A stretch of 39,634 nt of DNA. Source: a virus. Below the pieces are notes generated by a model, which was not told where the DNA came from, ran no database searches, and was given only the letters and a program-made list of their open reading frames with translations. The stretch's first letter is position 1; every line of letters begins with the position of its first letter. Location of the stretch: positions 1 to 39,634 of IMG/VR virus record IMGVR_UViG_3300025326_000106. One strand, 5' to 3'. A program made the translations under genes and the position numbers. Positions 4,831 to 39,634 of the stretch are shown here, in pieces.

Positions 4831-6873
4831 CTACTCAACGACAGGTATGACGGTGCAGGTACAATTTGGGTGAAGTGGCGGGCCATTTACAGTATCGTAA
4901 TCAAAAACCCTAATACCGCCATCCACTCCTGTTAATGTTTGTCCCACCTCAAAATATACAGTTTCTATACCAAGTACCCGGCCTTGCATAGCCTGACAAA
5001 ACTCACAAGCAGTTGGGTTTGCCAACCATTCCTTTTTTATTACATAACCAGTTTGTCGATAAGCCTCGATAGCAGCGTCGGTTGAGGCTTGCAAGGTTTC
5101 TGTTCTTGCTACTCTTTCGGCCCTGAATTTCTTACCGTCTAAATAAACTGATCTTATCTTTTTGGTGGTTTCTGCCAAAGTCTGATCGTTTAAAGCAGCG
5201 TCGGTAAGTATTTTCTCCAAAGCCTGTCTTGTTTCGGTATTGAAATTAATACCCATTCTAGCGGCACGGCTTCTTATAGTATCGGAAATCCTTTGCGTTA
5301 TTTCAAATTTTAGTTCTTCTTCACCTGCCAATAATAATGCAATCGACCCCTGCTCTTTAGCCAACTCAACCAGTATTGGGAATACATCCTCAACCATATC
5401 TTTGACTTCTTGGTCTATATCAAAAAGTATCTCGTTGAAGGCTTTAGCCATCATTTTTCTTGGCTTTAACCTACTTAACACTTCACGTTCCTGATTACCA
5501 ATAAACTTGTCTATCTTTGCTTGAAGCAGTTTAGAAAATTGTTCTTGGGTCTTCATCAAGGTAACCCTAAAATTTTCTTTTACCTCTTTGGCCAATTCTC
5601 TTTTGTTTTCCTTTACAATAAGTCTTTTCCTTCTTATTTTTATTACCCCGACAGACTTTTGCTCTTTTATCGGCTCGCCTATTGGTGCGAGGTTAAATGG
5701 TTGATAAAGCTGGTCACCATTTGTAATCGGAGTCAAACCCTTTTCGGCCCTGATCTCATTGATTGTTTTCCAAGAATTTAGACTAGCTGTATTTTCAGCA
5801 AGGTTGGCTGTTTTATCTTCCGGTACAGGGGAATCATAGATAACGTCTATGTCTGGGTCGCCGTAAGTTTTATCAATGTATGTTTCTATAGCGTCAGCGA
5901 TTGCATACATTTCAGGGTCAATAACCCTTTTGGCAAAAACATACTCGGCACTCTCGGCGGTGGCCCTGTTTACATCTTCGGTCAAACCGAGAATAGTTTT
6001 CGGCACCCTGAACATAGCTAGAATATCGTCACGGCTCATTTCCTTTGCTGCTTTGATAGCAATATTGTTCATACCCTCACCAAGCTGCTCGAACTTGACC
6101 TCTGTGTCCCTGACTATGGCAACCTTTCCAGCATTATCTACAGTACCGTACTCACTTCGCCATTTCTCTTTTAATTGGTTAAAGTCCTCCTCATTCATAT
6201 TGGGAACCGACAAAACACCACTTGGCCTACCACTATTAAAGAGGAAGTTTCTGCCAAATCTCGAAGCGTATTCTTCAGTCTGGATATATAACCCTGCCGC
6301 TTGAACAACGCCATAACCTCTTGTCGGATCTTCTGGGTTTGGTAACAAAAGCGGCAGTACTTCGTCTAAGTCTAACGGCACTTTTTCACCGCTTGGCAAA
6401 TTATAAACATACCCCTTTATATAACCATCCTCACCGTTGATTACCTGAACCAAATCAGGCCTCAACAGATATATTTCTCTTGGCTTTCGGCTTGTCTCAC
6501 CAACACGGAAATACCAAAAACACTCGCCGGTTAATTTCCTAAAAGCAGTGGTAAGTTGAAACAAAGTAAACTGGCTGCTATATGGATTAGGTTTTCTTAG
6601 CAACCTAATAAACGGATGGCCTATTTCTTTAGGATTACCATTTCTGTCGGCCTTTACCACTTTAAGGTTTATTCTGCCGACCTCATCTGAGATAGCCCTA
6701 ACACAAGTCCAGACATAACCTACGTTTTGAGATAAAAATGTTCTTCTGGTTATTGCTTGTGGGTCGTTCCAAGAGGAGATGATTCCTGCGGTGGGGAAAT
6801 TGTCACCAAAACTGGCGAACACCTTACCGACTACGGGTAATTTAGAAACGAATTTAGTAAACCTGTTGGGCAT
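4831..6873 (-). CDS. Portal protein fused to MuF-like minor head protein
   Basis: 680 aa. Residues about 40-410 are an HK97-family portal: NVGYVWTCVRAISDEV, LRKPNPYSSQFTLFQL, DDILAMFRVPKTILGL and LNSWKTINEIRAEKGLTPI are hallmark segments. Residues about 430-680 are a MuF-type minor head domain: ARTETLQASTDAAIEAYRQT, then NPTACEFCQAMQGRV and the ending PPLHPNCTCTVIPV. Portals are usually 400-550 aa with MuF as a separate gene, so this is a fusion. The portal forms the DNA gateway of the capsid, and the MuF part probably lies on its inner face. No ribosome site is seen; a perfect extended -10 box (6881-6889) is 7 nt upstream. Confidence 0.93.
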   Translation of the reverse strand: MPNRFTKFVSKLPVVGKVFASFGDNFPTAGIISSWNDPQAITRRTFLSQNVGYVWTCVRAISDEVGRINLKVVKADRNGNPKEIGHPFIRLLRKPNPYSSQFTLFQLTTAFRKLTGECFWYFRVGETSRKPREIYLLRPDLVQVINGEDGYIKGYVYNLPSGEKVPLDLDEVLPLLLPNPEDPTRGYGVVQAAGLYIQTEEYASRFGRNFLFNSGRPSGVLSVPNMNEEDFNQLKEKWRSEYGTVDNAGKVAIVRDTEVKFEQLGEGMNNIAIKAAKEMSRDDILAMFRVPKTILGLTEDVNRATAESAEYVFAKRVIDPEMYAIADAIETYIDKTYGDPDIDVIYDSPVPEDKTANLAENTASLNSWKTINEIRAEKGLTPITNGDQLYQPFNLAPIGEPIKEQKSVGVIKIRRKRLIVKENKRELAKEVKENFRVTLMKTQEQFSKLLQAKIDKFIGNQEREVLSRLKPRKMMAKAFNEILFDIDQEVKDMVEDVFPILVELAKEQGSIALLLAGEEELKFEITQRISDTIRSRAARMGINFNTETRQALEKILTDAALNDQTLAETTKKIRSVYLDGKKFRAERVARTETLQASTDAAIEAYRQTGYVIKKEWLANPTACEFCQAMQGRVLGIETVYFEVGQTLTGVDGGIRVFDYDTVNGPPLHPNCTCTVIPVVE

Positions 6874-6880
6874 TTAGTTT

Positions 6881-6889
6881 ATTATACCA
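6881..6889 (-). promoter_or_regulatory. Extended -10 box (TGGTATAAT) abutting the portal start
   Basis: Minus strand 6889-6881 reads TGGTATAAT, a perfect TGn-TATAAT. The portal ATG at 6873 lies where transcription would begin, so the transcript would be leaderless. A weak -35 (TTTGTG) stands 17 bp upstream, in the end of the terminase gene. Confidence 0.45.
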
Positions 6890-11492: not shown

Positions 11493-12308
11493 TCAATTTC
11501 GATAAGGTTGTAATTTCCAATTCCCTTGCTTGTCCTTGTGCCACTCGATACTTTTTATATTATCGTCAACTAAAATATCGGCTTTTCTGGTCATGTGTAT
11601 AACTCTCAAACCCCAATCAACCTTAGCCTCATAACCTAACTTACAAACATCCATTACAAAACAAACATCTGGCCCAAAACACTCCGCCTCATATCGGTAC
11701 TTTATATTTTTATATAGATAGGCAGTAGTTAGATAACAATAAAACCCCCCACCGGTAATCGGTTCGATAAGATCGCTTATAAATCTAGGTGGCAACAATG
11801 TTTTCTGGGTTGTTGGATCATGAATGTTGTTTGTTACCCAAGCCCCCACCATTTTTATTCCATGCCTACCTGCCTCGACCCCCTCGACAAAGCCAATATC
11901 TTCGTCACCATCAATAGTCTCTCTAAGTTTTTGAAATGTGTTCGGCGGTACCAATGTATCATCCTCAAGTCCAAAAACATATTCACCGGAAATCATCAAT
12001 TTGCTTTTTTCTTTCATACCTACAATTCTGTTTCTCTGTACCGATATATTTGTTTCTAAAGGTGCGGGGTTGCCGCTAACAAAAAGTTTGCAACCATTAA
12101 ACTCCTCTGCCTTTTCTTCCAGATATTCTCTGAGCCTTTTTATTAAAACTTCATTATCACTATCAACAAAAAAGTCCAGTTCCGTTTCTTCTCTAGGTAT
12201 AATTATACTACTTAAAGATGGTAAAAATCTATCCAAAGACCAATCTCTAGTGAAGGGAACAAACACGCTTATAAGCGGTCTTTCTGGGGCCTTTATGATT
12301 TCAAGCAT
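11493..12308 (-). CDS. GT-A (family 2-like) glycosyltransferase
   Basis: 271 aa. ISVFVPFTRDWSLDRFLPSL at about 13-32 is the nucleotide-sugar-binding start of a GT-A fold. GLEDDT near 115-120 supplies the DxD-type metal site. GGGFYCYL and the late FGPDVCFVMDV are plausible acceptor-side loops. It should transfer a sugar from a nucleotide-sugar to an unknown acceptor in the host cytoplasm; no membrane segment. Last of the seven-gene glycan cassette. Overlaps the previous gene by 16 nt. Confidence 0.8.
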   Translation of the reverse strand: MLEIIKAPERPLISVFVPFTRDWSLDRFLPSLSSIIIPREETELDFFVDSDNEVLIKRLREYLEEKAEEFNGCKLFVSGNPAPLETNISVQRNRIVGMKEKSKLMISGEYVFGLEDDTLVPPNTFQKLRETIDGDEDIGFVEGVEAGRHGIKMVGAWVTNNIHDPTTQKTLLPPRFISDLIEPITGGGFYCYLTTAYLYKNIKYRYEAECFGPDVCFVMDVCKLGYEAKVDWGLRVIHMTRKADILVDDNIKSIEWHKDKQGNWKLQPYRN

Positions 12309-13342
12309 AGGTCTTCAAACTCCTTTAAATACAAAGGGATTTGGTTTTCCCAACTTATTTTATCGGCCAGTTCATTTGAATAATCACTAAGTTCTTGAAC
12401 TAAACTTGGTGTTTGGGCCAAAAGTTCTATCCTGTCCGCCAAGTCATGAGGACTACATTGGTAGCTTTCCATCTTCATTCTGGTAAATATTGTTTTTACT
12501 GAGTTATATTTTATTAGTGATGCTGATTTTAAATACTGGTTTTGAGGAGTAATATCAGTCATTAAAGGTATCATACCGCAGCTTAATGCCTCATTCAACT
12601 GCAAACTAAGGCCGCCATATTTTCTCGGCAAAAGTAAAACGTCTTCGTCTTGATAAAGACTCCAATAATTATCCACGTCGCTATTTATTACCTTGACGTT
12701 ATACTGACCCAATTCCGGTAACGGATGCTGACTGTAAATAATAAACTCCAAGTCTTTATTTTTAACCAACTTTATTGCTTCAAATACCGTTTGGGTTCCG
12801 TTTCTATCATCAAAGGTTTTATAGCCAGCTATATGCAGGAACTTCTTAGCTTGGGTTCTTTTCTTAAACGGAAGTAATTTTCTGTTGACTGGTGCAGTTA
12901 GATACTTTACTAAGGTTTTATCGCCAAACTTTTGCCTTACCTCGTCAATTTTCCAAGTTGTCGGTGCGGCCAACATATCTGGGTAAACCCAATCTGGCCT
13001 CAGGAAATAATCAAGGAACTCATAATTATATTGGTTTACTGTCTTGATATCCCTTTCCCTAGCCATGCTGTAAAGTTGATAGCCATAGGGAGATTCAACT
13101 GTAAAAACCACATCCAAATCTTTAAGAAAACTGTCAAAGTCTGAATCGGTTGGGAAACCGTAAACAAACACTGCCTTTTCTGGATAGCGATCTGGATAAT
13201 TTTTAGTAACCTTACCCATGTGCTGATTTACCCCTGTCATATCTATTACCAAAGTTTTATCCGGCTTCATATTCTTATAAAATTCGTGGGTTTGTACCCC
13301 CACGCCAGTATTATCCATCCTAGCCAAAAGGCCGATTCTCAT
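12293..13342 (-). CDS. GT-B (family 4-like) glycosyltransferase
   Basis: 349 aa. Begins MRIGLLARMDNTGVGVQTHEF, a GT-B N-terminal Rossmann start. The second half has the donor-site pattern VLLLPRKYGGLSLQLNEALSCGMIPLMTD, equivalent to the E(x7)E region of family 4. No signal or membrane segment. Overlaps the genes before and after it (4 and 16 nt), so it is translated in register with the rest of the cassette. Substrate unknown. Confidence 0.82.
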   Translation of the reverse strand: MRIGLLARMDNTGVGVQTHEFYKNMKPDKTLVIDMTGVNQHMGKVTKNYPDRYPEKAVFVYGFPTDSDFDSFLKDLDVVFTVESPYGYQLYSMARERDIKTVNQYNYEFLDYFLRPDWVYPDMLAAPTTWKIDEVRQKFGDKTLVKYLTAPVNRKLLPFKKRTQAKKFLHIAGYKTFDDRNGTQTVFEAIKLVKNKDLEFIIYSQHPLPELGQYNVKVINSDVDNYWSLYQDEDVLLLPRKYGGLSLQLNEALSCGMIPLMTDITPQNQYLKSASLIKYNSVKTIFTRMKMESYQCSPHDLADRIELLAQTPSLVQELSDYSNELADKISWENQIPLYLKEFEDLCLKS

Positions 13343-15030
13343 ATCATTTTCCCTTTCACAAACATTTTATACTTAGGCTCTGCCCCCCTGCCGTCCGTGT
13401 GGTAGCTTCTTTTCATGTCCCCTTCGGGTGCGTAAATCCAAACCTTCCAGTTATTCCAACCAGCCTTACCCAAGATTTTATAGCTTTCCATCAAAGGACT
13501 GTGGACAATGTCTTCAATCATTGTCTTGTCGCCAGCTTCAAAATACTTGTCAATCATTTGCCTATAAAACTCAGTTGAGGCAACATGGGGCCTTTGTGAC
13601 CACTGCGAGGTTCTTACTAAAGGTATTCCGTGTATTGTTATTGGTTGTTTATCAAGCATCATATGTTTATGGACATCTAAAATAAGGGCTTCATGGTGAA
13701 GCCTTATCATGTTGGCCTCACCACTCCTAACTGTTTCTATTAAATTCTTAAACGGTATTTCTTGACAAAGCGGTGCATCATGTTCGACAAACATAATAGT
13801 CGGAGTTCTGGCAAGTTTAAGGGCCTCTCTAGTCATGGCTGCTTGGTGTTTATGCTCTTCAAAAAAAAGCGGGACTACATTATGCCAAACAAAGTTAGTC
13901 CCCCAAAGTAATCTCCTAACATACTCATCATACTGACTTTTGAATTTCTTTTGTTCGTCCCTAACCCCATCAATCATCAATATTATCTCGCTATTTGGCA
14001 GTCGTTCCCTTATTGTGCTGATAGTTTCTTCAATCATAGAAGTGTCGGGATGGTTTATTATCGGGCTGGTAGGTATTAAAACAGTAATTAAATCCTTTAA
14101 ATCATCTGTTATCGATTCTGTTTCCGCCAGATAATTTATATCGTCTGTTATTTGGTAGGCTAACTCTCGTTTTTTAAGCTGCCACCAAGCAAATATTTTA
14201 TTGTTTATCGCAGGATAGCGATCAATCATGTTTACCATAACTCCTTTTAACTTCCGCCAATCGGTTATTACGGGAAAGGGAATGTCATCTCCGAATAGCT
14301 TTCGCCAGTAATTTGTCCTCTTATCGTCCTTCCTTGTTTTATCGTCAGCTATTGGTACACACCCCGACTCTAAAGCCTCATAAAACCTAAAGGTATCTGG
14401 TGTCTCCGGCCCCGAAGGACAAGGTGCAACCTTAGCCGAAGCCATATAATTGTAATATTCTTGGTGGGGCAAACCTTCGGTAAACTTTTCTGTCTCTACC
14501 AAATGACCGGTATATTTTTTATCCTTTTTTATACTAACTAAAGCCTTCTTACATTGCTGTCGCCTCGTGTGGGTTATCTGACCAGCAAAAAACCAATCAA
14601 TACTCTTGTTAACCAACCCTGCTACTTTAATCAATTCTGGGGCATCTGGTGGCCACCCGTCACCCAAAAACCCATCTACCGACTTGTGCCTGTCAAAGTT
14701 TGGAGTCATAACATAGGTTTTTATTCTTGGGTGGTTTATCTTTTCAACAGGAAATGTGGCTTCCTCATCACCGGCAAGTATCAAAATACACCACCTAAGT
14801 TTAGCCAAGTCTGAATTGATCTGGTCTATATCTTTAGCGTGATAACGAGCAGGTATAACTACAATGCCGTAGTCAAAAACACTATCAAAATCGTCATGGT
14901 GTTCAAACTCGTAATCGCCTACAGGGTTCCAAATCTCTTTACTGAAAATATGCTCAATAATCCCCATGTCCCAATAACCACGGTTGGGTGTTTCCTGGTG
15001 GTAACTTTTCCAAAAGACAGGCACTATCAT
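13339..15030 (-). CDS. Two-domain glycosyltransferase: exostosin-like plus GT-A-like
   Basis: 563 aa. The N-terminal half (about 1-310) has the exostosin/GT-B signature CPSGPETPDTFRFYEALESG followed by CVPIADD. The C-terminal half (about 320-563) restarts like a GT-A enzyme (ITVLIPTSPIINHPDTSMIE; later MFVEHDAPLCQE as a possible acidic metal site). Two transferase domains in one chain suggest it adds two successive sugars, as polymer-building enzymes do. It overlaps both neighbours by 4 nt. Confidence 0.8.
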   Translation of the reverse strand: MIVPVFWKSYHQETPNRGYWDMGIIEHIFSKEIWNPVGDYEFEHHDDFDSVFDYGIVVIPARYHAKDIDQINSDLAKLRWCILILAGDEEATFPVEKINHPRIKTYVMTPNFDRHKSVDGFLGDGWPPDAPELIKVAGLVNKSIDWFFAGQITHTRRQQCKKALVSIKKDKKYTGHLVETEKFTEGLPHQEYYNYMASAKVAPCPSGPETPDTFRFYEALESGCVPIADDKTRKDDKRTNYWRKLFGDDIPFPVITDWRKLKGVMVNMIDRYPAINNKIFAWWQLKKRELAYQITDDINYLAETESITDDLKDLITVLIPTSPIINHPDTSMIEETISTIRERLPNSEIILMIDGVRDEQKKFKSQYDEYVRRLLWGTNFVWHNVVPLFFEEHKHQAAMTREALKLARTPTIMFVEHDAPLCQEIPFKNLIETVRSGEANMIRLHHEALILDVHKHMMLDKQPITIHGIPLVRTSQWSQRPHVASTEFYRQMIDKYFEAGDKTMIEDIVHSPLMESYKILGKAGWNNWKVWIYAPEGDMKRSYHTDGRGAEPKYKMFVKGKMI

Positions 15031-15698
15031 AATTTAAAAAGAATATTTGCTTGATTAAAATTCATTTCCCCATCAAACCTTCTACCGTTTTTAAAAGCCT
15101 TATAACCGTATTCCATCAGTCTTTTATAAATATCTGGATAACTGTTATTAAAGACAGGACTAAATTCAATAAATAAATTCCTGACTCTTTTTTCTTTCAA
15201 CCAGTCTTGATATAAGTTGATTGCATAGACCTCGTTGCCTTCAATGTCTATTTTTATTAACTCTATAATAGTTTTGGCAGTTTTTAATTTTTCGATTTCA
15301 CCATCAATCCAAATTGTGAATGTGCTTATTTTATCGACAACCGAATTTAAAATCGCATTGGCCTTTAAAGTCTTTATGTTTTCTTTATCGCCATCTATAG
15401 CTTTGACTTGATAGCCCATTTTTCCTGCCAATATTGAATACCAACCTATATGGCAACCAATATCAATAAGCAAATTATTTCGATTGCCATTCTCTAAAAT
15501 ACCTTTGACTATTTCGGTCTCCGGTTTCTCCCAAGCACCCTCATTTATTAAAGTCCTAGATACATCATCTTTACCAGTACAATAACCAGCAATATCTTTA
15601 TATTTCTCGTAATCATAAACAAACATTGGCCCGACCCCAGTTTCGACTTTTAAAGTATCGTGTTTTTTATGCCCAGCTTGGCAAACGTTTCCTATCAT
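15027..15698 (-). CDS. FkbM-family AdoMet methyltransferase
   Basis: 223 aa. LLIDIGCHIGWYSILAGKMG (about 76-95) is the AdoMet motif I, VKAIDGDKENIKTL motif II, and LIKIDIEGNEVYAI the FkbM signature. FkbM enzymes O-methylate sugars and related small groups. A TTG farther up would give 230 aa, but the ATG at 15698 overlaps the previous stop as ATGA, so it is preferred. It sits inside the glycosyltransferase run, which argues for methylation of the glycan rather than DNA. Confidence 0.83.
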   Translation of the reverse strand: MIGNVCQAGHKKHDTLKVETGVGPMFVYDYEKYKDIAGYCTGKDDVSRTLINEGAWEKPETEIVKGILENGNRNNLLIDIGCHIGWYSILAGKMGYQVKAIDGDKENIKTLKANAILNSVVDKISTFTIWIDGEIEKLKTAKTIIELIKIDIEGNEVYAINLYQDWLKEKRVRNLFIEFSPVFNNSYPDIYKRLMEYGYKAFKNGRRFDGEMNFNQANILFKL

Positions 15699-16303
15699 AA
15701 TTTTTTTGCTGTTACCCAAGTCCAGTTTTGATAAATTAAGCCCTTATCGTATTTTGTTATCACTAGGTCGTTCATATTAAGCCACTTAGATACCTCGTCT
15801 AATTGATAGTGGTGGCTCATTGGTTCGTGTTCGTTCCCTTCAATAAATTGGAATCTGAATACACCGTTTTTATTTAGGTGTTTTCCCACCTCTGATATAT
15901 ATGCTTTAATCCCACCTTCGTCTATATGTTGAAAAACCGTAACTGCATAAATAAAATCTGATTGATAATCATTAGGTAACTTTCTCCCTTTGGTGTGCTG
16001 AAAACCTAAATTATTAACACTAGCTTCGATATTTTTAGCTCTGTTTTTAGCAATGTTTAACAAACCTTCTGATATATCAATACCTAGAACATTAGCTTGA
16101 GAAAATTTTAAAGCCGTGGGTATAGCCAATCTACCAACACCACAACCAATTTCTAATATAGCTTTTGGGGCAAAATCAAGGTCTTTAAATAAAATATCGA
16201 TTTCTTCTTCAGTTGATATTTCCTTATCGTGCATTTCGCTATCGACATTTTTTGATTCAGCTTTTTGGTTCCAGTACTGTCTTTCAAAATTAACTCTTTT
16301 CAT
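15695..16303 (-). CDS. Class I AdoMet methyltransferase
   Basis: 202 aa. AILEIGCGVGRLAIPTAL (about 48-65) is motif I and LGIDISEGLLNIAK motif II; FIYAVTVFQHIDEGG matches the UbiE/COQ5-like motif IV region. Likely a small-molecule or sugar O- or N-methyltransferase. Linked by overlaps to FkbM genes on both sides. Confidence 0.82.
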   Translation of the reverse strand: MKRVNFERQYWNQKAESKNVDSEMHDKEISTEEEIDILFKDLDFAPKAILEIGCGVGRLAIPTALKFSQANVLGIDISEGLLNIAKNRAKNIEASVNNLGFQHTKGRKLPNDYQSDFIYAVTVFQHIDEGGIKAYISEVGKHLNKNGVFRFQFIEGNEHEPMSHHYQLDEVSKWLNMNDLVITKYDKGLIYQNWTWVTAKKL

Positions 16304-17036
16304 AAAATAAATGAACCTCGTGTTGGTAATCTAGTAAGGTTTCTTTATACCCAAAGGCTTTAATCCAATTTCTTAAATCGGTTAGGTACTCTTTATATTG
16401 GTGGAACATAAACTCTGGATGGCCACTAAGCCATATTTTAGGCTTGTGATTTCTTATAGTTTGTTCTGCTCCCCTTAAAACTTTCCACTCGCTGCCCTCT
16501 ACGTCAAGAATAATTGCTGTCGGTGGTTTTAATCTTTTCGCTGTATTATCGATTTTATATTGTGGTAATCCATCTGCTTCTAAATATAATTCGCTAAACC
16601 CGTGTGCTTTTACAATTTTACCTTGTGAAAATATAGGCCAAGTATCTTTGCCATTTGCCCAGCCTATACCTTCGTATAATTCTTTATCGGGATTTTTTGG
16701 TATTTGTTTTTCAACACTGCTTGCAAACCCAGCTAAAAGCCCCAATGGGCGTTTCAATTTGTTTGCTTTCCATACCGCTTTTATAACTGGCCAAGCCTTG
16801 TGGTTAGGTTCGTACAAGACAACTTCCGCCCCCCACATTTGACACAAGGCTGGCATCTCGCCCAACTCCGCACCAACGTAATAAACTACATCACCTTCAC
16901 CAATATACTCGTGCATTGAACTTAATCTTTTCTTTTCCCAACCTTGCTTGGTAAACCATTCTAGCCTAGCCGCCCTATGTTCTGGTAGTTTAATTTTAAA
17001 CTGACCATTTATTAAAGTATCAATCATTTTTACCAT
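16290..17036 (-). CDS. FkbM-family methyltransferase, second copy
   Basis: 248 aa. VVYYVGAELGEMPALCQMWG is a divergent motif I and ILDVEGSEWKVLRGAEQTI the FkbM signature. It is clearly distinct from the gene at 15027, so the two probably methylate different positions or sugars. Start could be M1 or M4. A 48-bp gap separates it from the CgeB-like gene, in which I see only a 25-codon frame. Confidence 0.8.
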   Translation of the reverse strand: MVKMIDTLINGQFKIKLPEHRAARLEWFTKQGWEKKRLSSMHEYIGEGDVVYYVGAELGEMPALCQMWGAEVVLYEPNHKAWPVIKAVWKANKLKRPLGLLAGFASSVEKQIPKNPDKELYEGIGWANGKDTWPIFSQGKIVKAHGFSELYLEADGLPQYKIDNTAKRLKPPTAIILDVEGSEWKVLRGAEQTIRNHKPKIWLSGHPEFMFHQYKEYLTDLRNWIKAFGYKETLLDYQHEVHLFYEKS

Positions 17037-17084
17037 TTATGTTTTCTTTCTTCTCTTACTACTCTGGGTTTATAAAAATTATCT

Positions 17085-18038
17085 TCAATTGTTTTTGGGA
17101 ACTCCATTTATTACCTCCAATATTTTAGCCCACCTTTGTAAATAAGTGTGGTCTCTTTTTGTTCTTTCCGATCCTGCCCTTCTAATCTCCTCCCGTTCCT
17201 TTTTGTTTTCAACATAGTAATCAATCTTAGATTTTAAATCTTTGAAATCACCAAACTTAAAAGTAACAATTTCTTTTCCTATCTCGAAAAAATCCTCAAT
17301 CCCTTTGATATACGGGTGGATAATAAAGCCGCCTCGGCCTGTCGTCTCAAAGATACGGTCACTTAGGTAGTTGGGGTAATCAAAGTTTAAACACAAGGTA
17401 TCGCCGATAACTACTTTAGATTCAGCATAAATCATATTCAACTCGTGTCCTCTAACCACCTTGATACCGTCACCACCATAATGAAAAAACCTTTGACCGT
17501 AGGTTTCTCTAAGCCAATCAACAAGCTGTGGTCGCCACTGCCACTCAGGATGATAACCTCGGCTGCCTACAAACACCACATCCTTATTTTGATTAACATT
17601 TTGGTTTAGATAACACTCTTGGTCAAATACTCCTGCCGCTAAATAATGACCTTTAACCGGCGTGTTTTTATTAAGCCAGTTGGCCATGTTCTTGTCGGCA
17701 GTAAAGAAATGTTGGATATTCCAGTAGTCCTCTGTTTCCATCTCCTTTTGTCTTTGAATCCCAAACCATAAATCCAGATGATAAGTCAAGGTTGGTATAT
17801 TACGGCTTTTCAATAATTTTAATAACTCTCGCATTGTTAAGACTCCGGGAGTATTCCACCCATGAGTATGTACCCAAACAAATAAATCTGACCTGGAAGC
17901 GACCTCAAAAATCAATTCGCTGGTAGTGTTTCTTTCTTGCAGCTTAATAACTTCGTGACCAAGAGATTCTAAAGATTTAACATGGTGACTCTCGCTACTA
18001 AAATCTACACCGAAATTTCCTAAAAATGTTATTTTCAT
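17085..18038 (-). CDS. CgeB-like glycosyltransferase (family 1/GT-B)
   Basis: 317 aa. Starts MKITFLGNFGVDFSSESHHV; the C-terminal half has VVIGDTLCLNFDYPNYLSDR then IFETTGRGGFIIHPYIKGIE, the signature of CgeB/DUF3880-type transferases, followed by KKEREEIRRAGSERTKRDHT, typical of the family end. AGAGGAT precedes the ATG. First gene of the glycan cassette in the direction of transcription, so perhaps it adds the first sugar to the acceptor; that is inference. Confidence 0.83.
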   Translation of the reverse strand: MKITFLGNFGVDFSSESHHVKSLESLGHEVIKLQERNTTSELIFEVASRSDLFVWVHTHGWNTPGVLTMRELLKLLKSRNIPTLTYHLDLWFGIQRQKEMETEDYWNIQHFFTADKNMANWLNKNTPVKGHYLAAGVFDQECYLNQNVNQNKDVVFVGSRGYHPEWQWRPQLVDWLRETYGQRFFHYGGDGIKVVRGHELNMIYAESKVVIGDTLCLNFDYPNYLSDRIFETTGRGGFIIHPYIKGIEDFFEIGKEIVTFKFGDFKDLKSKIDYYVENKKEREEIRRAGSERTKRDHTYLQRWAKILEVINGVPKNN

Positions 18039-21396: not shown

Positions 21397-21567
21397 TCAA
21401 CCCCCTAGTTTAGCCTTATAGTTTCTATACCTCTTGTGTACTGCTTGCCTAGAAACATTAAATTGGGGCATCTTGGATATTTCATCGAAGGTATAACCCT
21501 GGATGTCGTGCAAAGCAACTATCAAGCTTTGTTCCCGTTCGTGCTTTCTTCTTCTTGGTTCTTCCAT
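21397..21567 (-). CDS. Small HTH DNA-binding protein, 56 aa
   Basis: A basic N-terminus (EEPRRRKHEREQ) is followed by an HTH resembling sigma region 4 or a resolvase-type HTH: LIVALHDIQGYTFDEISKM, then FNVSRQAVHKRYRNYKAKLG. About half of most phage regulators in length; a likely transcription regulator of the early region. TATAAT lies at 21574-21579, six bases before the ATG, so the transcript could be leaderless. Confidence 0.65.
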   Translation of the reverse strand: MEEPRRRKHEREQSLIVALHDIQGYTFDEISKMPQFNVSRQAVHKRYRNYKAKLGG

Positions 21568-21574
21568 AGATAAA

Positions 21575-21889
21575 TTATAAACCCTGTGTCAACTTGTTTC
21601 TTATTTCTTCAATTTTTTTCCTAGCTTTTAGTCTTTCCTCCGGTGTTTGCTGGGGATATTTTTCTGGAGCCGTTAGTTGGTTTTCTATTTGTCTGCTTTC
21701 AAGTGACCACGAAACAATATGTGATAATTTAAAACCGCCTTCTTTTAACTCAATGAAGCCCGACTCCCCCTGAATCAACCTTCTTTTTATCTGCTCTAAC
21801 TCCTCGCCGGTAACCTGATATTCTTTTCTTGTAGAAAGCTGGATTGTCCAAAGCTCACGATATTTTGGTATAGCTGTATTTTCTACCAT
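21575..21889 (-). CDS. Hypothetical protein, 104 aa
   Basis: MVENTAIPKYRELWTIQLST then a helical GEELEQIKRRLIQGESGFIE; tail KARKKIEEIRNKLTQ. The frame opens 15 codons earlier, but AAAGGGG eight bases before this ATG supports it. It lies directly after the replication-like gene, so a replication accessory role (loader or ssDNA binder) is possible but unproved. Confidence 0.6.
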   Translation of the reverse strand: MVENTAIPKYRELWTIQLSTRKEYQVTGEELEQIKRRLIQGESGFIELKEGGFKLSHIVSWSLESRQIENQLTAPEKYPQQTPEERLKARKKIEEIRNKLTQGL

Positions 21890-22478
21890 TTTCTTGACCC
21901 CTTTCTTTAATCTTTCTAATATCACGCAATACAAAATTACGCAATGCGGCTTTTAAATCTTTATATCTCTTTCCGCTAGAAGCCACATAATTATCTAAAG
22001 CCTCTTTTTGATAACGTACAAACGCAATAGGTACACCGTATCGTTCTGCTGTTTCCAATAAGTCTTGTTCTGTTAAGGGGGAGATAATAGAGGGGGTTAT
22101 TTCTTTCTTCTTACTTCTTTCTTCTTTAGTAGTGTTAATTTGTTGTATGTTTTGATGTTCGTTTGTTGCATAGTTTGATTGATACTTATCATAATTATTG
22201 ATTGTTATATATGTGTGTTTGTTGTCTGTTTTGATGTTAACCTGGTGTTTAAGTTGTTGTATAAGTAGGTGTCTAACAGTTAGTCGGTTCCAACCCCACC
22301 TTTCGGATAGGTATTTTTGAGTTGTTTTTAGTTCTCCACGCTTACAAAAATCAGTATCTTTATAGTTGGCGAGAAATATTAAGTCTATCCAAGCCTGGCC
22401 TTTACTAAAGGGCCGGTCTTTCCATATCTCATTATCAATTATTTTTCTGAAAACTTTTATCCAGCCGTTATTGTCCAT
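21855..22478 (-). CDS. Replication initiator-like protein (winged helix, DnaD-like)
   Basis: 207 aa. The N-terminus WIKVFRKIIDNEIWKDRPFS then KGQAWIDLIFLANYKD is the usual start of phage replisome-organiser proteins; GELKTTQKYLSERWGWNRLTV is the recognition part of a winged helix. The middle is a low-complexity linker (EERSKKKEITPSI), and the C-terminus LLETAERYGVPIAFVRYQKE and VLRDIRK resembles a short DnaD-type helix bundle. Expected to bind the origin and recruit host helicase. The start at 22478 is chosen over a 244-aa frame because AGAGGG precedes it and the upstream part is a structured leader. First gene of the early operon. Confidence 0.75.
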   Translation of the reverse strand: MDNNGWIKVFRKIIDNEIWKDRPFSKGQAWIDLIFLANYKDTDFCKRGELKTTQKYLSERWGWNRLTVRHLLIQQLKHQVNIKTDNKHTYITINNYDKYQSNYATNEHQNIQQINTTKEERSKKKEITPSIISPLTEQDLLETAERYGVPIAFVRYQKEALDNYVASSGKRYKDLKAALRNFVLRDIRKIKERGQENGRKYSYTKIS

Positions 22479-22574
22479 CAAAAAAGCCCTCTTTATGCTG
22501 CGGGGAGTTGTCACACTCGCTTGCGGAATACCCGCAGCCCAAAGAAGGCTTTTAGTGTGACAGTTTACTTCCGC
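22479..22574 (-). promoter_or_regulatory. Attenuator-like leader with mutually exclusive hairpins
   Basis: Starting about +1 (near 22574), the RNA carries: A agtgtgac (22554-22561), B (22531-22549), A' gtcacact (22510-22517), B' (22486-22504), then six U (22480-22485) and the AUG at 22478. A pairs perfectly with A' (8 bp). B pairs with B' through cccgcagc/gctgcggg and an AAAGA/TCTTT extension with a GGC/GCC base, forming a terminator with U6. A-A' encloses B and B-B' encloses A', so the two cannot coexist as simple hairpins. An inner TGCGG/CCGCA hairpin fits only with A-A'. The GAGG ribosome site is inside B', so the terminator also hides it. Confidence 0.7.
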
Positions 22575-22580
22575 AATCAA

Positions 22581-22609
22581 AATATACACTACTCATTTTC
22601 AAATGTCAA
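22581..22609 (-). promoter_or_regulatory. Consensus promoter for the early leftward operon
   Basis: Minus strand: TTGACA (22609-22604), exactly 17 bp, TATATT (22586-22581). This is the best -35/-10 pair I found in the window, and it faces the attenuator leader and replication gene. Confidence 0.7.
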
Positions 22610-22898: not shown

Positions 22899-22926
22899 AG
22901 AAGGCTCTGCTGCCCTAGAGTCTTCT
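22899..22926 (+). terminator. Terminator-like hairpin at convergent gene ends
   Basis: agaaggctct (22899-22908) pairs with agagtcttct (22917-22926) with one mismatch, around an 8-nt loop, followed on the plus strand by TATTTT. It lies just after the plus-strand gene and overlaps the last codons of the 3D-domain gene; it may stop transcripts from both sides. Confidence 0.5.
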
Positions 22927-23382
22927 TATTTTCAATACCCTTCGGCCCCAAGCTATAGCGTCATCATAATTTGGAAAGTAAACGTCAATCTTGTTGCCCT
23001 TTATAGCACCACCCCTATCAAGAACCGTACAAATCCCATAGCCAGGTATTTCAAATTTTGTCCCAAAAGGATAAACAGGGTCGGCAGCACAGATTCCATA
23101 AGCAACCCTAGCCCCGGAAGCGGTGTAGTACCCCGTCCCTTCTTGCTGGCTGGTGCTGTAACCAGTTACGCTATAAAAGCCGTTAGGGGCGACCACAGGG
23201 CCTCTGGCAAGCATTTGTGGTTTTGGAGTATATTTTTTAGATTTTATGGATACTGTTATTACAGGCCCTTGATATTCTGCGGGTTTTGGGGTTTGCCTAG
23301 TTTGGTTTTCGGCTGCCGTATCTCCGTTAAATATTAAAACTAGGAAAATAATCAGGAGATACGGTAAGAAAATTCTATACAA
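22915..23382 (-). CDS. 3D-domain cell-wall enzyme with signal peptide
   Basis: 155 aa. Residues 1-20 (YRIFLPYLLIIFLVLIFNG) are a signal peptide or anchor. The 3D domain at about 68-155 has the three conserved Asp in AADPVYPFG (Asp101), VLDRGGAIKG (Asp122) and NKIDVYF (Asp133) and is related to double-psi barrel lytic transglycosylases (YabE/MltA-like). It likely cleaves peptidoglycan outside the membrane. TTG start, no ribosome site; an extended -10 box stands just upstream, so it may have its own, nearly leaderless transcript separate from the lysis genes. Confidence 0.8.
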   Translation of the reverse strand: MYRIFLPYLLIIFLVLIFNGDTAAENQTRQTPKPAEYQGPVITVSIKSKKYTPKPQMLARGPVVAPNGFYSVTGYSTSQQEGTGYYTASGARVAYGICAADPVYPFGTKFEIPGYGICTVLDRGGAIKGNKIDVYFPNYDDAIAWGRRVLKIRRL

Positions 23383-23390
23383 CCGATATA

Positions 23391-23399
23391 ATTATACCA
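23391..23399 (-). promoter_or_regulatory. Extended -10 box (TGGTATAAT) before the 3D-domain gene
   Basis: Minus strand 23399-23391 reads TGGTATAAT, the same nine bases as before the portal gene. The expected transcription start is 2-4 nt before the TTG codon at 23380-23382. Confidence 0.5.
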
Positions 23400-28929: not shown

Positions 28930-30681
28930 TTATTTAGGTTTAATTGTTAGCCCCAAGTTTGCTAACTCTTGGTTTCTGGTAAATCTTCTAAGAAAATCGT
29001 CAGCTTGTACTTGAGAACCGATATTTATATCACCAAGCACTGTCGTATTTGCTGTATTGTTATTTGTACTTTGAGCTAATCCTGGGAAGTTAGGTCTTAC
29101 AGTAGCCGTAAAATCTCTTGAAATTGAATTTATCTCGTCAAACATCCCACCATAAAGACTTGTTATCTTATCAGTACCTTTGCTTATTAAATCTACTAGG
29201 CTAGGCGAATGTCTTGAAAACGGGTTTAGATTCTTTAAAGTTTCAACCACCTTGCCCACCTGTTCCTTAATCCAATTAAAGGCCTTTTCAAAGGGTGCTT
29301 TTAAAGTATTGTAAACATTTTTTAGGGCATTTCTTATTGAAGAATCAATACCTTTAAAAAAGGCAATAAGTTTACTGGCCATATTTATTACAAAAGAAAT
29401 TACTTTAATCATAAAAGTAAATTGCTTAATTGCCAGCAATATGGCCCCGAAAATTACTACTCCTATAACCACTGCTAAAAATTTTAGTATCGGTATTAAA
29501 GTCGGAGCAACCAAAGTCCAAAGTTGTTTTAGGGCAGGAAGCAAGTCCTTTGAAAACGCAGTCCAAAGTTGCATAACCGCCGGTATCAAAAAGTTAGTAA
29601 CTGCAAATGTAATTAAATCGAAGGCGGCTTTTATTGTATCTACTATTGGTTGTAGAGCTTTTAATGTATTATCCAAACCGCCAAAATGTTCGATAAGTTT
29701 TTGAATACCAAAAGCTAACAATGCCCCAGCAGCGATAAATGGTAACAAGGGGGCAAACAAGGTAATAAATCCGGCTGCTAAAGCTAAAACCGCAGGTACA
29801 AGACCGCCCATGATAGCACCAGCTATTATTGGCAAGTGAGGTTGTAATTGTTGCAGCTTCTCTATAAAGAAGTTTAGAACCCCTTGTGGCCCACCCATAG
29901 CTGTAAACCAATCATTAAAGGCTTGAATAACAGGTTCCAAACTATTGCTAATACCCTCACCTATAAGCTCCATGAAATCACTGAACGTATTTTTTGCTAT
30001 TGTCAGTTGCCCAGCAAAGGTCTTGCCAGCAGCCTCGGCACTACCACCAAATTCGGTTTTCAACTCTTTCATTATCAAGGCTTGGGCCTCAGCCGAACGA
30101 CCTGTTTCAACTAAGTTTTTTATTACATCTTGCTGTGCTTCATTGAAATTAACACCAACCCTACGCAAAGCCGTGACACCTAAAATTGGATCTTGAAGGG
30201 CTTTTCCAAGCTGTATAGCAGATGATTTTACATCCTGACCAAGTGCTTGGCTCATGTCTAGCATTATTTCTGTAGCCTCTGGAAATATATCCTTGCCTAT
30301 TTTAGTAAAGGTTAAAAGTAGGTTTTCACCAGTTTGGATTGTTTCGTCACTAAATTTAGTTGTCTTTTGTAAAGAGGCCGCAAGTTTGGAAACTTGGTCT
30401 GCGGTTACGCCAGCGACACCGCCAGTAGATTTCAAGACTGCCTGAGTCTGAGCCATGACGTTTTGTGCTTCGGTAAAGGCTTGGATAGATTTGACCCCGA
30501 AGGCTACCGCCCCAGCAGCAGCAGCAGTCAGACCACCAAGCAAGGCAAATGAACCGCCTTCAGCCGCTTTAGTAGCACTACCTAAACCATGAAATTTCCT
30601 GCTTGCTGAGTCTACATCACCTTCAAACTTGCCCTTGTCTAAATTTAGAGTATATTTTATTGATCCAACTTCAGTTGCAAT
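28930..30681 (-). CDS. Tape measure protein, apparent ATT start
   Basis: 583 aa from 30681. The segment FTEAQNVMAQTQAVLKSTGG, SKFSDETIQ-like KTTKFSDETIQTGENLL and LGKALQDPILGVTALRRVGV are strong tape-measure signatures; hydrophobic spans follow at about 260-340 and 385-440. A TTG start at 30543 would remove 46 residues that form a normal family N-terminus (ATEVGSIKYTLNLDKGKFEG). In that frame the only start near the strong GGAGG (5-nt spacing) is ATT at 30679-30681, where an ATG is expected. It sets tail length, so the tail is about 80-90 nm by the usual residue-to-length relation. That length is an estimate. Confidence 0.88.
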   Translation of the reverse strand: MATEVGSIKYTLNLDKGKFEGDVDSASRKFHGLGSATKAAEGGSFALLGGLTAAAAGAVAFGVKSIQAFTEAQNVMAQTQAVLKSTGGVAGVTADQVSKLAASLQKTTKFSDETIQTGENLLLTFTKIGKDIFPEATEIMLDMSQALGQDVKSSAIQLGKALQDPILGVTALRRVGVNFNEAQQDVIKNLVETGRSAEAQALIMKELKTEFGGSAEAAGKTFAGQLTIAKNTFSDFMELIGEGISNSLEPVIQAFNDWFTAMGGPQGVLNFFIEKLQQLQPHLPIIAGAIMGGLVPAVLALAAGFITLFAPLLPFIAAGALLAFGIQKLIEHFGGLDNTLKALQPIVDTIKAAFDLITFAVTNFLIPAVMQLWTAFSKDLLPALKQLWTLVAPTLIPILKFLAVVIGVVIFGAILLAIKQFTFMIKVISFVINMASKLIAFFKGIDSSIRNALKNVYNTLKAPFEKAFNWIKEQVGKVVETLKNLNPFSRHSPSLVDLISKGTDKITSLYGGMFDEINSISRDFTATVRPNFPGLAQSTNNNTANTTVLGDINIGSQVQADDFLRRFTRNQELANLGLTIKPK

Positions 30682-38410: not shown

Positions 38411-39013
38411 TTATACCTCTAATACCCATCTTATTAAGGCTTTTTTACTTATTTTTTCTTTAGTTTTCATAGAATGTTTTTTGCCCCACATAGGATTATT
38501 TCTTCCATTATGGTCTGCTGTTCTTCCTTTACTGATTCTATCAAAATTATTATCTGATCTCGTTCCCAGAAACAAATGTTTCGGATTGATACATGATGGA
38601 TTATCGCATTTATGGCAAATGCATAAACCTACTGGTACTTCTCCAAAATGTAATTCCCAAGATAACCTATGTGCCTTATACCATTTAATAGGTTGTCTTG
38701 ATTTATATAATATTCCATATCCTTGTGATTCTTTTGCCCCTTGCCATTCCCAACATTCATCTTCTTTACCTTTTTTTACTTTAGCCCAAAAGCGTTCTTC
38801 TAAGATAGTAAAAACTCGTCCTTTTCTTTTACTTGGCCTATCCTTAGCTGCTTTATCACTACATTTATAAGAACAAAATCTTCTACTTTCCCAATATTCT
38901 TTTGTAACTCTATACTTAGGCGAAAACTGTTGTTTACAAATTTCGCATATCTTTGGTTCTATTAATCTTCCTAGCCCTTTATTATAAGGAACATTACCTT
39001 TTGCATATGTCAT
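38411..39013 (-). CDS. HNH homing endonuclease with NUMOD motifs
   Basis: 200 aa. A zinc-ribbon N-terminus (KICEICKQQF, RFCSYKC) is followed by an HNH_3-type nuclease (WYKAHRLSWELHFG; VPVGLCICHKCDNPSCINPK; HLFLGTRSDNN) and a NUMOD3-like DNA-binding tail (NPMWGKKHSMKTKEKIS). A free-standing homing endonuclease between structural genes, probably a selfish element or an aid to gene conversion of the adjacent 168-aa locus. Confidence 0.85.
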   Translation of the reverse strand: MTYAKGNVPYNKGLGRLIEPKICEICKQQFSPKYRVTKEYWESRRFCSYKCSDKAAKDRPSKRKGRVFTILEERFWAKVKKGKEDECWEWQGAKESQGYGILYKSRQPIKWYKAHRLSWELHFGEVPVGLCICHKCDNPSCINPKHLFLGTRSDNNFDRISKGRTADHNGRNNPMWGKKHSMKTKEKISKKALIRWVLEV

Positions 39014-39634
39014 GTGAGCATTATATCATAGTTCACATGATATAACAATAACCCTAAACTTCCACCACTACGAAACAATAGGCATTGACCGCCGCACCTG
39101 CAGTTACTCTAACACGCAAAGAAGTAGAGACATTGACAATCGGTTCCCTGCCTAAAGGGAATTGCTTTAAGTATTGATTGGTCGGTGCTACCAGTTGAGC
39201 ATCAAACATTCTTGTTGCTGAGATTGACCCTTCTCCTGTTGCCGTATAACCTGTTCCAGTAGTTGTAAGAATGAAATTAGAAGTAGTCGGGTCAACCGCA
39301 TTCGGATCAAGTTTAACAATACCTGATGCTGCGTGAGCTGTTACAGTGGCAAAAACTGTCCCCGTTTCAAGAAGTTCACATTTAATTGGTGTTGCCGCCG
39401 CTGAACCATCAAATGAGATACCCCACTCGACAATCTTCCCGAAATTCTGAGTACCAAGTTTTACTTGCAGCAAAGTTTTAATTGCTGTTCCCGTTGTTAC
39501 AGGTACTTGAGCTGCTACTGTCGGGCTAGGGCCATTATAAACTACATAAAGTTGTGCCATAAATTATCCTTTCTTTAATTATACACCATACTAATTTTTA
39601 ATTAAGGTATAAATTCCAATAAAAACCAAAGTTC
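38991..39634. repeat. Right copy of imperfect terminal repeat (circular join)
   Basis: Matches 1-644 at offset 38990 with no indels. Removing one copy gives a circle of 38,990 bp. See the left copy for the distribution of differences. Confidence 0.9.
39054..39560 (-). CDS. Putative virion decoration or fibre protein, allele B
   Basis: 168 aa, same protein as at 64-570 with Val15, Ala26, Val33, Ala77 and Thr115 in place of Thr, Val, Ile, Val and Ser. About 90% of the base differences are synonymous. The upstream AAAGGA and TATAAT are identical to allele A. Confidence 0.75.
   Translation of the reverse strand: MAQLYVVYNGPSPTVAAQVPVTTGTAIKTLLQVKLGTQNFGKIVEWGISFDGSAAATPIKCELLETGTVFATVTAHAASGIVKLDPNAVDPTTSNFILTTTGTGYTATGEGSISATRMFDAQLVAPTNQYLKQFPLGREPIVNVSTSLRVRVTAGAAVNAYCFVVVEV

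Follow-up and report, generated by a model that had tools for sequence, protein, structure and literature searches.

Leaderless translation has been studied mostly in actinobacteria, Deinococcus and archaea, and the leaderless gene of phage lambda is cI. In Escherichia coli, a TG located one base before the -10 hexamer (extended -10) offsets a missing -35 element, and residues H455 and E458 of the E. coli sigma factor contact this TG. In a survey of 953 bacterial genomes, leaderless genes were defined by a TANNNT signal about 12 bp before the start codon, with the highest fractions in Actinobacteria and Deinococcus-Thermus (Zheng et al. 2011, PMC3160421); the term 'candidate division' does not occur in its text and phage is mentioned once, for lambda, whose leaderless mRNA is named as the first case. 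For Corynebacterium glutamicum, 33% of the mRNAs were described as leaderless on the basis of RNA-seq and many promoters as having the extended -10 sequence TGnTATAAT with a weak -35, according to the sections consulted of PMC3890552.

The virus record IMGVR_UViG_3300025326_000106, analysed here over its whole length of 39,634 nucleotides (39.6 kb; hereafter the window), encodes a tailed phage, with genes for a portal protein carrying a Mu F-like domain, a large terminase, a head protease and a major head protein. Boxes of the same extended -10 type stand directly before the start codons of some of its genes, and it is highly probable that they are host sigma-70 promoters without a -35 element that start leaderless or near-leaderless RNAs at these start codons. 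The features concerned are the following:

6881-6889, minus strand: extended -10 box TGGTATAAT of the portal gene, within the 27-nt gap behind the terminase gene
6874-6880, minus strand: 7-nt gap between this box and the ATG, candidate zone for the predicted RNA start
4831-6873, minus strand: portal gene with C-terminal Mu F-like domain, ATG at 6873 (PF04860, PF04233, phrog_2662)
39020-39028 (= 30-38), minus strand: extended -10 box TGATATAAT of the HNH gene, 6 nt before the ATG
38411-39013, minus strand: HNH endonuclease gene with NUMOD3 motif, ATG at 39013 (PF13392, PF07460)
23391-23399, minus strand: extended -10 box TGGTATAAT of the 3D gene, 8 nt before the TTG
22915-23382, minus strand: gene of a 3D-domain protein, a probable cell-wall enzyme, TTG at 23382 (PF06725, phrog_2307; start from the ORF list)
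21574-21579, minus strand: plain -10 box TATAAT of the HTH gene, without TG, 6 nt before the ATG
21397-21567, minus strand: small HTH gene, ATG at 21567, with a weak match to sigma-70 region 4

Genome organization and gene content

Nearly all genes of the window are located on the minus strand according to the ORF list, and no tRNA genes were found in it. Apart from 51 mismatches, all of them within 118-532, bases 1-644 and 38991-39634 are identical, and contig L003 runs across the join, with the genes of both ends side by side; the genome is thus circular or circularly permuted. The HNH boxes at 30-38 and 39020-39028, whose positions were given correctly in the initial annotation, had been listed there at both positions; since both ends of the window are the same stretch, they are one site. 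The mismatches of the overlap are often three bases apart, and in the gene at 64-570 two variants seem to be joined where the contig closes.

A run of glycosyltransferase- and methyltransferase-like genes occupies 11493-18038, with PF13524 and PF05050 in two of the genes, and its order is preserved in a relative with 65% identity (G001). The tape measure gene has an apparent ATT start (30679-30681, minus strand), preceded by a strong GGAGG site, where the G001 ortholog carries ATG; either a rare start codon or a sequence error may be involved. At 22478-22600 (minus strand), a TTGACA-17-TATATT promoter-like pair was recognized by eye 5' of a gene possibly starting near 22478, together with a terminator-like hairpin and T run directly 5' of the ATG, a possible attenuator.

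Position of the boxes in the window

The boxes of the portal and 3D genes and the plain TATAAT of the HTH gene were confirmed at the coordinates listed above, as initially annotated. Gaps of 6-9 bases to the start codon had been proposed, and those measured in the window are 6-8 nt; counted from the first T of the core to the start codon, the distance is 12 nt for the HTH and HNH genes, 13 nt for the portal gene and 14 nt for the 3D gene.

The motif TGNTATAAT was found 8 times in the window, compared with 2.5 expected, a count that was reached in 1 of 100 shuffles, and all 8 copies are on the minus strand. Once the duplicate HNH box is removed, 7 independent copies remain, three of which (portal, HNH and 3D) are placed 5-9 nt before one of the 63 listed starts, a zone that represents 0.81% of the circle (binomial probability 1.8e-5; rotation p = 8e-5). 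The count of TGnTATAAT by distance to starts, proposed in the initial annotation, therefore shows enrichment, and the outcome that it had named as refuting, a motif no commoner before starts than elsewhere, was not obtained, the window being enriched and its relatives far more strongly so. TATAAT alone was rejected as a motif, as it was found 45 times in the window against 48 expected, without enrichment.

It could be argued that the boxes are a coincidence of AT-rich sequence, or weak internal promoters, and that the genes are read from polycistronic mRNA by coupling without a Shine-Dalgarno (SD) site. The portal start, only 27 nt behind the terminase gene, would suit coupling, and the other four of the seven boxes (3544, 25892, 30779 and 32212) are intragenic, with no listed start 5-9 nt further on. 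The four boxed genes lack a ribosome site, as had been noted, but the 4-nt SD core is absent before 34 of the 63 genes of the window, which is in line with coupling without SD and makes its absence weak evidence for leaderless translation (four of four by chance, about 0.08). The rotation test argues against coincidence, as does the behaviour of the motif in relatives and in cellular genomes (see below), and this explanation is regarded as improbable.

Two further sequences were observed by the boxed genes. In the HNH promoter (39011-39045, minus strand), visual inspection showed an inverted repeat, TTATATCAT/ATGATATAA, which partly covers the -10 box and is a possible operator; the CATGTGA/TCACATG repeat, also detected by eye, could mask the start codon in a longer RNA and leave it free in a leaderless one. 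Upstream of the HTH gene (21568-21600, minus strand), TTGACACAGGGTTTATAAT resembles TAGACAAGGGGTATATAAT in G001; its spacing is too short for a -35 element and it may be an autoregulatory site.

Presence of the boxes in related phages

Viral searches with the portal and 3D proteins of the window recovered near-identical contigs only. Relatives were gathered with a profile of distant portals, which yielded loci at up to 65% portal identity, and with a second profile, which yielded more loci. The viral search with the HNH protein recovered mostly unrelated phages (80 of 130 matches kept), and the control loci derived from it (L009-L085) yielded a single event at 5-9 nt from the 27 boxes counted over 38 AT-rich loci. 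Cultured phage records had less than 60% identity to the window in all listed bands.

In the 65% relative G001, TGTTATATT is located 8 nt before the ATG of the portal gene and TATAAT 7 nt before the ATG of the HTH ortholog. Its CHAP-LysM gene, probably of lytic type and by family no homolog of the 3D gene of the window, is preceded by TGATATAAT at 7 nt. In G003, all 8 copies of TGNTATAAT are on one strand and 7 of them precede ORFs of 40 codons or more at a distance of 6-9 nt, five boxes at exactly 6 nt; the boxed genes include those of the portal and the tape measure.

Over 224 viral loci, a set that combines the matches of the portal, 3D and HNH searches with those of the portal profiles and takes in near-identical relatives of the window, 53 box-to-ATG events were detected at 0-30 nt; 29 fell within 5-9 nt, including 15 at exactly 6 nt; the reversed motif gave 6 events at 0-30 nt and 1 at 5-9 nt. 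Expressed as distinct boxes, 27 of 123 were at 5-9 nt versus 1 of 56 for the reversed motif.

A set of terminase loci was defined from alignment A3, at 63-72% identity to the window, and comprises 17 loci (274,246 bases), namely 16 of the 20 found plus L170. It leaves out L324 (the phage of the window) and L093, L196 and L338 (near copies of G001), and includes L327 and L340, which are pieces of G001 and G003. In these loci, 26 of 40 distinct TGNTATAAT boxes were followed at 5-9 nt by an ORF that opens with ATG and has 40 codons or more, compared with 1 of 26 for the reversed motif and 10 of 263 for TATAAT without TG, all three figures being recounts by distinct box (the event counts keep control duplicates). 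In the pooled relatives, the gap between box and start peaks at 6 nt.

At the portal gene, TGNTANNNT was present 5-9 nt before the start in 10 of 15 terminase loci, window included, the start having been picked among candidates with the upstream sequence already seen in L332, L333, L334, L335, L336 and L337; in the loci with a single candidate portal start the figure was 7 of 9. In five intervals of equal width farther upstream of the portal, TGNTANNNT was found in 0, 1, 0, 1 and 1 of the 15 loci. It was absent at 5-9 nt in L170, L331, L332, L334 and L337; a plain TATAAT is found at 6 nt in L334. In a wider set, and with no more than one mismatch allowed, a box was located 5-9 nt ahead of 10 of 51 distinct AT-rich portal starts, and the portal box is thus a feature of part of the family.

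Two stretches of 21 kb, L326 and L330, have 8 of 8 and 6 of 7 copies of TGNTATAAT, respectively, placed 5-8 nt before ORFs, many of them adjacent, an arrangement of the sequence that suggests one leaderless promoter per gene. Six of seven L326 proteins compared with PHROG had no match, and the seventh, the product of a boxed gene, was GroES-like (phrog_3188).

With respect to the -35 element, 1 of 33 phage boxes had four or more matches to TTGACA when spacers of 15-17 were scored, and other spacers gave 3-8.

Distribution in cellular genomes

The pattern TGNTATAATN6ATG was found 965 times in 145 genomes of a small-genomed phylum, versus 83 times for the reversed pattern, and was present in 131 of the 145; with a 12-nt gap as control, the counts were 140 versus 90. 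Without genome G118, the counts were 865 versus 82 in 144 genomes, and the excess persists. The Bacillota, the sole phylum compared (101 genomes, 267 Mb), showed a mild 2.7-fold excess (365 versus 133), and in eight individual genomes from other groups 0-3 matches were counted per genome. All 31 genomes of the G118 family have the pattern (765 versus 15 reversed).

Genome G009, with 14 matches versus 1 reversed at 6 nt, was rejected as the example genome. Since 2 of its 37 TG boxes within 280 kb were at 6 nt, G118 was used for the full gap profile; it was chosen for having the most matches among the 145 genomes, and its level is therefore extreme. In 284 kb of G118, 30, 14 and 6 events were found at 6, 7 and 8 nt, respectively, and 0-6 at the other gaps up to 30 nt; TATAAT without TG gave 6, 2 and 1 events at the same three positions. 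By distinct box at 5-9 nt, the values were 51 of 137 with TG, 0 of 12 for the reversed motif and 11 of 276 without TG.

Thirty-three ORFs of G118 have the box at 6 nt, 3 of them under 40 codons. Ten of the 33, chosen by eye for their recognized N-termini, were scanned, and all 10 were conserved proteins, the best match beginning at residue 2-6 in 6 of them; they include peptidyl-tRNA hydrolase, SmpB, enolase, UvrB, an Obg-type GTPase and TsaD. At the 6-nt gap, T or C precedes the ATG in 87% of 54 TANNNT sites, as expected if A is the first base of the RNA. When the G118 sites were scored for a -35 element, 13 of 50 had at least four matches at spacers of 15-17, and other spacers gave 2-9; some of these sites may have a -35.

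These data bear on the explanation by coincidence and coupling. Several portal relatives without the box would be in accordance with it, but in both relatives and cells the boxes are sharply concentrated at 6 nt and require TG, a pattern that is seen neither with the reversed motif nor at 12 nt and argues against it. They also bear on a second alternative, real promoters that produce a very short leader of 1-3 nt, chiefly where the gap is 7-9 nt, as in the portal and 3D genes. RNAs of this kind may not be treated in the same way as those that are strictly leaderless. The window, with gaps of 7 and 8 nt, and the relatives and G118, with gaps of 7-9 nt, show what this alternative predicts, but the pooled sets peak at 6 nt, and RNA polymerases are generally known to shift their start site by one or two bases. 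A short leader at these genes is considered possible, although somewhat doubtful, and transcription that begins on the start codon or next to it continues to be the preferred reading.

Affiliation of the phylum and link with the phages

PF00327 (uL30) had no match in 56 of 59 genomes of the phylum and matched in 13 of 14 control genomes. The genome sizes, as listed, were 0.4-2.0 Mb, mostly about 1 Mb. Reduced genomes without the ribosomal protein uL30 are a hallmark of the Patescibacteria. The G009 MAG is placed in NCBI under unclassified Bacteria only, and we infer that the small-genomed phylum of G009 and G118 corresponds to the Patescibacteria.

A search of contigs from cellular genomes did not retrieve a near-identical relative of the window. 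Among cellular genomes, the closest relative was L170, in 'bacterium ADurb.Bin212'; it is syntenic with the window (terminase 64% and portal 32% identity, with head and tail genes), is located on a 28-kb contig for which misbinning is possible, and has two boxes, neither of them 5-9 nt before a start. When 379 genomes of the phylum were searched, the portal profile matched 9, 6 of them with E <1e-140. In G168, a prophage-like block on a 263.5-kb contig is located between genes for a Mur ligase, MurB and SecA and the gene of a phage integrase; the loci concerned (L314 and L315, contig C8) are a distant relative with a portal-Mu F fusion and head and tail genes. No TGNTATAAT was detected near the portal starts of G168, G180 and L170. 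The prophage-like block of G168 and the matches to the portal profile indicate that the portal family reaches this phylum, and the phage of the window itself likely infects members of it.

The initial annotation had proposed a class of phage promoters dependent on an extended -10 and coupled to leaderless translation. The extended -10 nature of the class is upheld, since the TG matters and the 33 phage sites are devoid of a -35 signal, but its restriction to phages is not: the layout is no peculiarity of phages, because it occurs widely in a phylum of cellular organisms in which related phages are found.

The factor that reads the box was also considered. Sigma-70 was compared with that of E. 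coli in four genomes of the phylum; H455 was conserved in 4 of 4 and E458 in 3 of 4 (D in the fourth), and eight further compared positions were kept. A phage-made factor, such as the small HTH protein, could read the box instead of the host sigma-70; this protein has a match to PF08281 (19.3 bits, below the curated cut-off of 25.7), and the element upstream of its promoter is conserved in G001. Nevertheless, the consensus is the standard sigma-70 extended -10, cellular housekeeping genes carry the same boxes, and the host sigma retains the contact residues, all of which makes a phage factor very improbable. Recognition by the host sigma-70 is thus the reading adopted.

Proposed mechanism

The housekeeping sigma-70-type polymerase of the host would read TGnTATAAT, the -35 being unneeded, and the placement of the box would set the beginning of transcription on the start codon or 1-3 nt ahead of it. 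With such a start, the mRNA would be leaderless or nearly so, and the ribosome would begin at its 5' end without an SD site. The portal, HNH, 3D and HTH genes would each gain their own transcript within a tightly packed genome. The layout is common to the related phages and would correspond to a normal mode of expression in the reduced-genome phylum in whose genomes relatives of this phage are found. This reading is built on features taken directly from the sequences, namely the position of the boxes, their enrichment, the need for TG, the lack of a -35 at the phage sites and the recurrence in relatives; from them we infer the 5' ends of the RNAs, their leaderless translation and the host of the window.

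Start codons in the window and in the relatives were taken from ORF lists. TTG is a poor leaderless start codon, and the TTG start of the 3D gene, at 8 nt, counts against the mechanism, together with the intragenic boxes of the window.

A broader version is put forward tentatively, with chances that we judge to be slightly below even: in this phylum and its phages, an extended -10 fused to the start codon may be a major mode of expression, L326 and L330 may produce serial leaderless mRNAs, and the ribosomes may be specialized. In L326 and L330, leaderless promoters, one for each late gene, would replace operons with ribosome sites, and the reduced ribosomes of the phylum would be specialized for a start codon at the 5' end of the RNA.

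Comparison with known systems

No paper on leaderless genes in this phylum or its phages was found in a search of an open-access library. PMC12641178 describes that YchF, retained in these bacteria, promotes leaderless translation in general, and PMC6851277 merely cites a protein-secretion tool. Leaderless genes are thus known as a kind; no description of this phage clade, of a strict TG box or of the spread across the phylum was found in that library, and prior work may exist.

If confirmed, these phages and their small-genomed hosts would constitute a further large group dependent on leaderless translation, and the layout points to a widespread, little-studied way of starting protein synthesis. 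The promoter consensus would be simple enough for the prediction of transcription starts from sequence only and for the correction of gene starts, and it may serve as a genomic signature for assigning orphan phages to small-genomed hosts. It also bears on how the reduced ribosomes of the phylum start translation, which is testable in the few cultured members.

In the TA-led genes of PMC3160421, as in the present ones, the signal is read as a -10 box that gives rise to a leaderless mRNA, and the 6-nt gap puts the first T at exactly the distance of 12 described there; the present box differs in being the extended TGnTATAAT, and it occurs in a clade of uncultured phages and in a phylum with reduced genomes. 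Corynebacterium glutamicum, according to the sections of PMC3890552 mentioned above, is similar in having leaderless mRNAs and TGnTATAAT promoters, but it is a cellular organism with 5' ends mapped by experiment; in the same sections, the extended -10 is not tied to the leaderless class or to phages. The extended -10 promoters of E. coli likewise combine TG and hexamer with no -35, but the mRNAs of this species are normally leadered. Lambda is comparable as a phage with a gene translated from a leaderless mRNA. In lambda this concerns one regulatory gene, whereas here structural, lytic-type and homing-type genes are involved and, unlike in lambda, stretches such as L326 and L330 have nearly every box laid out before an ORF.
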